Assembly: GCA_021156365.1 (NCBI GenBank)
Contig: JAJNDK010000008.1
Location: 62,001 to 126,000 of the forward strand
Direction of reading: 5' to 3'
From: Bacteroidota bacterium
GTDB taxonomy: Bacteria; Bacteroidota; Bacteroidia; B-17B0; Aurantibacillaceae
Length of the DNA: 64,000 nt
Shown: positions 32,411-34,518 of the stretch, piece by piece
How positions within the stretch are numbered: position 1 is the stretch's first letter
How the letters are laid out: every line of letters starts with the position of its first letter
Notes under the pieces: generated by a model
Told to the model about the DNA's origin: nothing
The model's input: only the letters and a program-made list of their open reading frames with translations
Database searches by the model: none
Position numbers and translations under genes: made by a program

Positions 32411-33643
32411 ATGAGCAAAATTAAAGTGGCCAATCCCGTAGTGGAACTCGATGGCGATGAAATGACACGTATCATCTGGAAATTTATCAAAGACAAGCTG
32501 ATCCTTCCTTACCTGGATGTGGATATTAAATACTATGACCTTGGAATGGAGCATCGTGATGCCACCAACGACCAGGTTACCATTGATGCGGCAGAAGCTA
32601 TCAAAAAATACGGTGTAGGGATCAAATGTGCTACCATTACCCCGGATGAGGCCCGTGTAAAAGAATTCAACCTGAAACAAATGTGGAAATCACCAAACGG
32701 TACGATCCGTAATATCCTGGATGGTACGGTATTCCGCGAGCCGATCGTTTGCAAGAACGTTCCACGTTTGGTGACCAACTGGACAGCTCCTATTATCGTT
32801 GGCCGTCACGCATTCGGCGATCAGTACCGCGCTACGGATATGGTGGTAAAAGGAAAAGGAAAACTGACCATGACCTTCACTCCTGAAGATGGCAGCGCTC
32901 CGGTTACACACGAAGTATACAATTACAAAGGGAACGGTGTTGCATTGTCCATGTACAATACAGAAGAGTCGATCCGTGGGTTTGCACATTCCTGCTTCAA
33001 CCTCGCTTTAACCAAAAAATGGCCGCTGTACCTGTCTACAAAAAATACCATCCTGAAAAAATACGATGGTTTCTTCAAAGACATTTTCCAGGAAATCTAC
33101 GAAAAAGACTACAAAGCTAAAATGGATGCAGCAGGTATCGTTTACGAACACCGACTGATCGATGATATGGTGGCATCTGCACTGAAATGGAACGGGAATT
33201 TTATCTGGGCATGTAAAAACTACGATGGTGATGTACAATCGGACAGCGTTGCACAGGGCTTCGGTTCATTGGGTCTGATGACTTCCGTACTGATCACTCC
33301 TGACGGGAAGATCATGGAAGCAGAAGCTGCTCACGGAACGGTTACACGTCACTTCCGCGATCACCAGGCAGGAAAACCAACCTCTACCAACCCGGTTGCT
33401 TCCATCTATGCCTGGACAAGAGGTCTTGAATTCCGTGGAAAACTGGACGGGAACCAGGATCTGATCAAATTCTGTAATGCATTGGAAGAAGTGTGTGTGG
33501 AAACGATCGAAAGCGGTAAAATGACTAAAGACTTAGCAGTTTGCGTTCATGGGAACAATGTGAAATTAGGCGAGCATTACCTGAACACAGAAGATTTCTT
33601 AACTGCATTGGATGAGAACCTGAAGAAAAAATTAGGTAAATAA
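32411..33643 (+). CDS. icd: NADP-dependent isocitrate dehydrogenase (eukaryote-like type)
   Basis: 410 residues, matching the length of the homodimeric eukaryotic-type (IDH1-like) subfamily. Recognisable blocks are [14 protein letters not shown] near the N-terminus, the substrate region [19 protein letters not shown] near 95-113, IDDMVA with metal-binding Asp near 250, and the NADP-binding [23 protein letters not shown] near 310-330. The enzyme oxidises isocitrate to 2-oxoglutarate with NADP+ in the TCA cycle. It is monocistronic, with a good promoter and a strong terminator, and is followed by the triplicate RNA-like elements. Confidence 0.95.
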
Positions 33644-33666: not shown

Positions 33667-33700
33667 AAAAGCCCGTTTACCTCAGGTAGACGGGCTTTTT
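33667..33700 (+). terminator. Rho-independent terminator after icd
   Basis: A long stem AAAAGCCCGTTTACC paired with GGTAGACGGGCTTTT (one G-U pair) and a tiny loop, followed by T5. Confidence 0.92.
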
Positions 33701-33737
33701 ACTTACCGCAAAATATTCTCTTTTTACCTCAAAGTAT

Positions 33738-33767
33738 TTGGTCAATTCAATGAAGTGTGTACATTTA
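33738..33767 (+). promoter_or_regulatory. Promoter of RNA element copy 1: TTG, 19 bp, TACATTTA
   Basis: TTG at 33738-33740 and TACATTTA at 33760-33767 have the canonical Bacteroidota spacing. The first hairpin of copy 1 begins 18 bases downstream. Confidence 0.55.
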
Positions 33768-33784
33768 CCCCTGAAAAACAATAA

Positions 33785-33861
33785 GACATTAGGGGTAATG
33801 TCGGTTTTTTCATGATTAGTAAGGATAGTAATGAGCCGTTAAGCAATTAACGGCTTTTTAC
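33785..33861 (+). ncRNA. Two-hairpin RNA element, copy 1 of 3 (candidate small RNA)
   Basis: Hairpin 1 is GACATTAGGGGTAATGTC (33785-33802), a perfect 7-bp stem with a GGGG loop. It is followed by GG, a T run and the conserved single-stranded tract CATGATTAGTAAGGATAG. Hairpin 2 is a perfect 8-9-bp stem GCCGTTAA/TTAACGGC closed by a GCAA (GNRA) tetraloop (33835-33854) and followed by T5, so it can act as a terminator. No open reading frame is conserved: the T run has 6 bases here and 7 in the other copies, which shifts any frame. Confidence 0.75.
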
Positions 33862-33962
33862 TTTATCAGATTCGTCTGCGGAGCCCGGCTACACGATTTC
33901 CGGCTACAACCATACATTTTCCCGGCTCACCTAAAATCCGTCCGGATCGCTTGTAAAGTATA

Positions 33963-33970
33963 TACCTTTA
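33963..33970 (+). promoter_or_regulatory. -7-like element TACCTTTA of RNA element copy 2
   Basis: It lies within AAAGTATATACCTTTA, a context shared with copy 3 (AAAGTATATACTTTTA). No TTG at the expected -33 distance. Confidence 0.45.
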
Positions 33971-33996
33971 TATCCGAAAGCCACCCGAAGAGGGAA

Positions 33997-34082
33997 GACA
34001 TTAGGGGTAATGTCGGTTTTTTTCATGATTAGTAAAGATAGCAAGGGCCGTTGTTTTGGTAATTCAGAACAGCGGTTTTTTG
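33997..34082 (+). ncRNA. Two-hairpin RNA element, copy 2 of 3 (candidate small RNA)
   Basis: Hairpin 1 (33997-34014) and the linking tract are identical to copy 1 except for one extra T and one base (AGTAAAGATAG). Hairpin 2 differs in sequence but keeps pairing: CCGTTGTTTT (34048-34057) pairs with AGAACAGCGG (34066-34075) through ten pairs including two G-U, with an 8-base loop, then T6. Conserved pairing despite changed sequence supports an RNA structure. Confidence 0.75.
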
Positions 34083-34299
34083 CTTCCAGACTGTACAACT
34101 AATTCCGACGGGAAAAGAAAATTACCCTATAAACAACAAAACCGCATAGACTTAAAGCCCTCCTGCCCTTTACCAGCAACAAAAGCAGCAGAATTGCCTA
34201 TAATACAGGCTTGCAGAAGGCTTGACTATAAAATTACCAGTTACGACGCATTTTTTGCCGATCCCACCTAAAAGTATTTTACAATGCCCGGAAAGTATA

Positions 34300-34307
34300 T
34301 ACTTTTA
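34300..34307 (+). promoter_or_regulatory. -7-like element TACTTTTA of RNA element copy 3
   Basis: It lies within AAAGTATATACTTTTA, 17 bases before hairpin 1 of copy 3. Confidence 0.5.
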
Positions 34308-34323
34308 CATCAGAAACCACAAA

Positions 34324-34400
34324 GACATTAGGGGTAATGTCGGTTTTTTTCATGATTAGTAAGGATAGCAAAAGCCGTTGAGAGATCAGCGGCTTTCTGC
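34324..34400 (+). ncRNA. Two-hairpin RNA element, copy 3 of 3 (candidate small RNA)
   Basis: Hairpin 1 (34324-34341) and the tract CATGATTAGTAAGGATAG are identical to copy 1. Hairpin 2 is AAGCCGTTGA (34372-34381) with TCAGCGGCTT (34386-34395), ten pairs with one G-U, closed by the GNRA tetraloop GAGA and followed by a T-rich tail. The 241-bp gap between copies 2 and 3 holds no convincing gene; the open frame 34056-34271 overlaps hairpin 2 of copy 2. Confidence 0.75.
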
Positions 34401-34416
34401 TTTTATGTCATTTTTT

Positions 34417-34518
34417 CGCCGCGGATTAACGCAGATTTCGCAGATATTTACTTTTATAAAAACCGTCATAAGTATACGAAGTGTTTAAATCTGCGAAATC
34501 TGCGCAAATCTGTGGCGG
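34417..34518. repeat. Large imperfect inverted repeat between copy 3 and pabB
   Basis: The arms near 34417-34450 and 34484-34518 are imperfect reverse complements (CGCAGATTTCGCAGAT on the left, ATCTGCGAAATCTGCG on the right). The words match the CAGATTT/AAATCTG family of intergenic repeats at 31865-32300 and 46100-46330. It lies immediately after the pabB stop and may end that transcript. Confidence 0.7.

Follow-up and report, generated by a model that had tools for sequence, protein, structure and literature searches.

Three tandem copies of a short element downstream of icd in Bacteroidota bacterium GCA_021156365.1 probably represent a previously undescribed three-copy small-RNA (sRNA) gene, which is predicted to act by start-codon blocking, a mode already known from FopS. 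In the 64,000-nt stretch of contig JAJNDK010000008.1 that we analyzed (the window), taken from a genome of 5.3 Mb, the copies lie on the same strand, and their hairpins start at 33785, 33997, and 34324. An earlier reading made from these letters alone (the sequence-only reading) had claimed that the copies share an exact stem-loop and an invariant tract; this was confirmed at those positions, and both parts were rare by chance. The 18-nt hairpin GACATTAGGGGTAATGTC was exact in all three copies and had no other site in the window at three or fewer mismatches (0.06 expected), and the linker CATGATTAGTAAGGATAG was found at 33811, 34024 (with one mismatch), and 34351 (0.04 expected in the window). 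Exact copies in the whole 5.3-Mb genome were limited to these three. In the alignment, the core was near-identical over 49–50 nt in all three copies, and the spacers between copies aligned with scores no better than those of shuffles; therefore, selection or very local conversion acting on the core is needed as an explanation.

Each copy showed the same architecture in the same order, namely a promoter-like module, hairpin 1, an unpaired tract, and hairpin 2, which ends in a T-rich tail. Folding of the three copies, with z-scores of −4.9 to −6.1, gave both hairpins and left the linker between them unpaired. Hairpin 1, located by sequence match and fold, has a 7-bp stem and a GGGG loop (as RNA, GACAUUA-GGGG-UAAUGUC) and occupies 33785..33802, 33997..34014, and 34324..34341 on the plus strand, as do all features of the copies described below. 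It is followed by the shared tract GG-U6/7-CAUGAUUAGUAARGAUAG, which was left open in the predicted fold. This putative seed and linker runs from 33803 to 33828 in copy 1 (GGTTTTTTCATGATTAGTAAGGATAG; from the fold, the antisense match to start codons, and the alignment with FopS R1′), from 34015 to 34041 in copy 2 (GGTTTTTTTCATGATTAGTAAAGATAG; from the linker match, the fold, and the T-run comparison), and from 34342 to 34368 in copy 3 (GGTTTTTTTCATGATTAGTAAGGATAG; from the peak of antisense 8-mers and the FopS alignment). Hairpin 2 varies in sequence and remains paired, as the sequence-only reading had noted (2 of 21 consensus pairs were altered on both sides and several on one side); however, it is better described as a rho-independent terminator than as the second functional hairpin of that reading. 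Both the fold and the terminator scan placed an intrinsic terminator in copy 1 at 33833..33866 (GAGCCGTTAA-GCAA-TTAACGGCTT TTTACTTT) and in copy 3 at 34371..34406 (AAAGCCGTTGA-GAGA-TCAGCGGCTTT CTGCTTTTAT), and the terminator of copy 2, at 34048..34085, with an 11-bp stem (CCGTTGTTTTG/CAGAACAGCGG) followed by T6, was recognized from the fold and by reading the sequence and was absent from the list of a simple scan. Directly after copy 3, the window also carries, at 34417–34517, an imperfect inverted repeat of 29 nt (86%; CGCCGCGGATTAACGCAGATTTCGCAGAT) whose arms are 43 nt apart.

The upstream neighbor, outside the element, is icd (isocitrate dehydrogenase, a name taken from the earlier reading), which occupies 32411..33643 of the plus strand in the gene list. 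It is separated from copy 1 by a terminator-like inverted repeat (I3) on the same strand at 33667..33699 (16-nt arms, 94%), which a T run follows, and beyond the locus the genes lie on the opposite strand. Thus, with a terminator belonging to icd on one side and opposite-strand genes on the other, no gene is placed for control in cis. Ahead of each hairpin 1 we found a promoter-like module that consists of ACCT(A/C)AAA, 19 nt, AAGT(A/G)T(A/G)TAC, and NTTTA, with identical spacing in all three copies, within which TACNTTTA resembles the Bacteroidota −7 element. Copy 1 carries the module at 33726..33767, with ACCTCAAA, TTTG (33737), N19, TACATTTA (the −7-like part, 33760–33767), and the palindromic AAGTGTGTAC, and with the same spacing as copies 2 and 3. 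By this shared spacing and the pattern scan, the module was assigned to 33929..33970 in copy 2 (ACCTAAAA...AAGTATATACCTTTA, with no TTG at −33) and to 34266..34307 in copy 3 (ACCTAAAAGTATTTT...AAGTATATACTTTTA). In the 2.46 Mb of genome scanned, the combined pattern was found solely at the three copies. The −33 TTTG is at the usual distance in copy 1 alone, and copy 3 has TTTT there. The sequence-only reading, which had assigned a −7-like box to each copy and a TTG to copy 1, understated the extent of conservation, which runs from ACCT(A/C)AAA through NTTTA. The switch that it had proposed between ACCCCT and the AGGGGT loop found no support: copies 2 and 3 lack the ACCCCT of copy 1, which there lies past the −7 box and ahead of the probable start.

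The promoter-like module, the lack of coding capacity, the terminator, and the conserved unpaired seed are hallmarks of a trans-acting Bacteroidota sRNA gene that can be read from sequence alone, and the −33 box was present in copy 1 only. We consider it very likely that the copies are sRNA genes. The tandem family of small RNAs of about 90–110 nt that had been suggested stands as the best reading, although its presumed working part, the antisense seed with its likeness to FopS, had been overlooked.

Searches for the element elsewhere returned little. Rfam gave no match in the window at its curated cutoffs, and neither Flavo-1 nor Bacteroidales-1, which had been named for comparison, matched. 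A nucleotide search of 60 relatives yielded short chance matches only. Covariance models were applied to a wider set of genomes, the whole-element model to 87 family genomes and that of the core to the same family, the order, and ~395 genomes sampled across the phylum. The many matches of the whole-element model among the 87 family genomes were, the three copies excepted, terminator look-alikes, and the only real covariance-model matches were the three copies (80–110 bits). The core was not found in the other 86 family genomes or in the ~395 sampled phylum genomes, and in the order and the phylum sample the core model gave nothing above 28 bits outside the genome of origin. Further copies with compensatory changes in hairpin 2, to which the sequence-only reading had looked, were likewise not found elsewhere in the covariance-model search of the family, the order, and the phylum sample. 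Based on the search of 60 relatives and the covariance-model searches, the element is not kept downstream of icd in relatives, and it was not seen among the matches listed for the icd downstream regions of 27 relatives. The exact 18-nt hairpin occurred three times in 84,980 genomes, in unrelated contexts, and viral, plasmid, and phage searches gave no match. The element is apparently confined to this species or to its unsampled neighbors, and, because no homologues were found, there was no cross-species covariation and there were no conserved targets to draw on. Two hairpin loci were observed separately. In a Bacteroidetes MAG (L013:5376–5412, minus strand), the same 18-nt hairpin lacks the linker, is lengthened to AGACATTAGGGGTAATGTCT, and has a T run after it; this hairpin is terminator-like and lies upstream of a 399-aa ORF. 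In a Lachnospiraceae MAG (L014:4080–4240, minus strand), four hairpins have ATTAGGGGTAAT in common and different but complementary lower stems; they lie within a long stretch ahead of a secreted-protein-like gene, gave no Rfam match, and have a loop identical to that of hairpin 1, which is probably a coincidence. The weak matches of the core model elsewhere covered mostly the U-CAUGAUU part (UUUUUUUCAUGAUU) alone, and this led to start codons.

When reverse-complemented, UUUUUUUCAUGAUU becomes AATCATGAAAAAAA, which can be read as a start codon with Lys-Lys after it. Many secreted proteins have the Met-Lys-Lys start AAUCAUGAAAAAAAC, to which the conserved unpaired stretch GGUUUUUUUCAUGAUUAG is antisense. 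We compared the tract with 1578 predicted starts, called mechanically in 2.46 Mb (46%) of the genome. At least nine contiguous complementary nucleotides were found at 141 of the 1578 starts, whereas control positions gave 12 in the interiors of these genes and 18 at their ends, in a test that was devised after the match had been seen and for a match that rests on few bases. When the tract was dinucleotide-shuffled 100 times, 1 shuffle reached 141, and 17 of 933 noncoding runs of T6–8, with copies of the element among these 17, did as well as the tract. Ordinary noncoding T runs match starts equally in ~1.5% of cases, and any U-run followed by CAU matches AUGAAAAAA starts. In a scan of the transcript by 8-mers, enrichment at starts was confined to the seed, with its peak in copy 3 at 34342..34368, where UUUUUCAU counted 138 versus 10.7, UUUUCAUG 57 versus 3.0, and UCAUGAUU 9 versus 0.7; the GGGG loop, the 3′ linker, and the terminator showed no such 8-mer enrichment. 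Hybridization energy failed to separate starts from gene interiors, and specificity was poor, with ~9% of starts matching 9 nt. Many of the matched genes have signal-peptide-like starts. Among the best extended matches were a minus-strand gene on C13 (28527 in the assembled stretch; AATCATGAAAAAAA), an exported glutathione-peroxidase-like protein (C13:164049), and C1:189537 (MKKTDIAKYV...), for which the match extends into the 3′ arm of hairpin 1.

FopS RNAs are paralogous, multicopy Bacteroides sRNAs with a seed followed by a terminator, and experiments showed that they pair beside the start codon of susC mRNAs and thereby stop translation (PMC11697453). The trio resembles them in having several paralogues per genome in a Bacteroidota host, in having an unpaired, similar-looking seed (GU-rich/U5-CAUG-AUUAG-UAAGG) directly before an intrinsic terminator, and in a seed that is antisense to start regions beginning AUGAAAAA, which for the trio is a sequence match only. 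It differs in that its seed is predicted to lie behind a stable 5′ hairpin in all three copies, whereas the FopS seed is at the 5′ end, in that its copies stand in tandem in one locus, whereas the Bacteroides-type FopS loci found here are mostly scattered over the genome, and in that CAUG and UAAGG lie 5 nt closer together in its seed. GibS (RF04182), which was shown experimentally to pair with translation initiation regions (PMC7366714), is a comparable trans-acting sRNA: an unpaired, AU-rich seed lies near its 5′ end and pairs over start codons, as is predicted for the trio. However, it scored 21.8 bits against a cutoff of 115, and it is single copy, has two seeds, and is of another length. 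A literature search revealed nothing closer than FopS, GibS, and Flavobacterium papers. Tandem multicopy sRNAs are also known in other phyla, as LhrC of Listeria and NmsR of Neisseria, whose adjacent paralogues act on translation initiation regions; these differ from the trio in being unrelated in sequence, as far as is known, and in that their seeds, C-rich or otherwise, target ribosome-binding sites, some of them with Hfq. Two further sets of genes were noted. FopS-like genes, scoring 29–36 bits and thus below the Rfam cutoff, occur outside the families in which FopS passes it (L281 and L283 in G498, and L284 in G197). They carry UUUUUCAUAGGAUAAGGUUUAAUGGUUAAUGGUAUUUGAUUAG ahead of strong terminators; G498 has two near-identical copies, and TATATTTG lies just upstream of one of the genes. 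At L261 and L263, both near 1501 (G024, G013), and at L262, a stop codon is followed by a U-run, CAUAGU, ...GGUUAA, and a terminator; this arrangement follows apparently the same gene in two species, and these may be 3′-UTR-derived start-codon antisense sRNAs.

With moderate confidence, we proposed that the trio consists of paralogous, trans-acting, start-codon-occluding sRNAs with an added 5′ hairpin, similar to FopS and GibS in action. The three genes would be separately transcribed into RNAs of ~95–110 nt each, and the seed U6-7-CAUGAUU would pair in trans with AAUC-AUG-AAA-AAA around the start codon. The targets would be mRNAs beginning Met-Lys-Lys (AATCATGAAAAAAAC, (A)ATCATGAAAAAAA), mostly of exported proteins, and the pairing would block ribosome entry and thereby repress them. 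Protection of the 5′ end is the probable role of the 5′ hairpin, whose 3′ arm might open and lengthen the pairing on some targets (AUGAAAAAAAC(G/C)GACAU). We infer that the three copies are transcribed, used in vivo for repression, and regulated in common, and that an RRM protein takes part.

Other explanations keep the sRNA genes and differ in what the seed does or where it came from. The U-tract and linker might mainly bind a protein, such as an RRM protein in a sponge or stability element, and the start match would then be a by-product. FopS RNAs bind RbpB through their 5′ portion (PMC11697453), the one RRM_1 protein found in this genome (86 aa; L230:1495–1755, C3:208034) has the domain type of Bacteroides RbpB and is a candidate sRNA partner, and identical, repeated unpaired tracts between hairpins would suit a protein ligand. 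Moreover, the linker is conserved beyond its start-matching part, and, because its 3′ half UAGUAAGGAUAG showed no antisense enrichment at starts, another role for this half is indicated. We nevertheless regarded a mainly protein-binding tract as rather unlikely, given that the antisense match spans exactly the conserved U-tract and CAUGAUU and beats nearly all noncoding T runs, and that start-region pairing is proven for the similar-looking seed of FopS. It is equally doubtful that the copies are diverged members of FopS or GibS by descent that gained a 5′ hairpin. They are multicopy, terminator-ended, and AU-rich, as FopS is, the FopS-like genes L281, L283, and L284 lie in other families of the class, and a permissive search with the FopS model (RF04319) gave full-length alignments to copy 3 (23.0 bits) and copy 1 (20.7 bits), with GU.UUUUUCAUG..AUUAG...UAAGG.UA..AAA in order; in detail, GUGUUUUUCAUGGUAUUAGAUUUAAGGUUAAUAAA aligned with GUUUUUUUCAUG--AUUAG---UAAGGAUAGCAAA, the R1′ seed being aligned in order with two gaps. 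In pairwise comparison with the FopS seed, copies 3 and 1 ranked first and second among 2633 noncoding T-run contexts, and their score was reached by 1 of 100,000 random genome windows and by 4 of 1815 antisense starts. However, the model score is far from the cutoff of 56 and at chance level genome-wide (E ~0.8), with no FopS match in the genome itself at E 0.05, and the seed is internal rather than at the 5′ end. Without the T-run, the likeness to the FopS seed fell to the 1% level, with 14 of 1815 reverse-complemented starts and 287 of 20,000 shuffles aligning equally; therefore, convergence on start codons can explain it. The trio is thus FopS-like in action as far as the sequence tells, and homology to or membership of FopS is not established.

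The remaining explanations dispense with an sRNA and seemed much less probable. Short or leader peptides (MISKDS...) encoded from the conserved ATG are highly unlikely: the codons ATG ATT AGT AAR GAT AGY contain two substitutions, both synonymous and at third positions, but two such changes are weak evidence, and the frames diverge at once, stop within the terminator stem or beyond it (after 12, 25, and 9 codons), and precede no gene that a leader could control. The change from 6 to 7 T, which the sequence-only reading took to rule out a conserved reading frame, leaves such a plus-strand ORF possible, as it lies upstream of the ATG, but breaks the frame of the minus-strand ORF starting ATGAAAAAA. 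That break counts against a functional minus strand, in which the copies would be remnants of a duplicated gene 5′ end (CTAATC-ATG-AAA-AAA-ACC-GAC). The reverse complement does resemble a start region, and the gene at C1:189537 begins ATGAAAAAAACGGACATCGCC, yet the frame shifts between copies, nothing is common beyond hairpin 1, and hairpin 2 has a T run on the plus side in every copy and no consistent one on the minus side, which leaves very little probability for such remnants. Repeated hairpins within an intergenic region could also suggest a nonautonomous mobile or repetitive element or a cis-regulatory attenuator; this is the least credible explanation, since the three copies are the only ones genome-wide, in a single orientation and at a single locus with no plasmid or phage match, and an attenuator would lack a plus-strand gene downstream.

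Few trans-acting sRNAs are understood in Bacteroidota, where initiation is little driven by Shine-Dalgarno sequences and Hfq is commonly lacking. If our preferred explanation is right, the start-codon-occluding trio would be a lineage-restricted set of sRNAs outside Bacteroidaceae that uses the logic of FopS and pairs at the start codon itself, and start-codon antisense seeds would be suggested as a general solution in the phylum. Exported proteins would be natural targets, because so many begin AUGAAAAAA. We tentatively suggest, as a possibility short of a probable one, that Bacteroidota lineages repeatedly and independently evolved multicopy sRNAs with a U-run/CAU seed against Met-Lys-Lys starts and that the trio is a separate, hairpin-capped origin of this kind. 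If true, such convergent evolution would have provided a way to lower the translation of many exported proteins at once.
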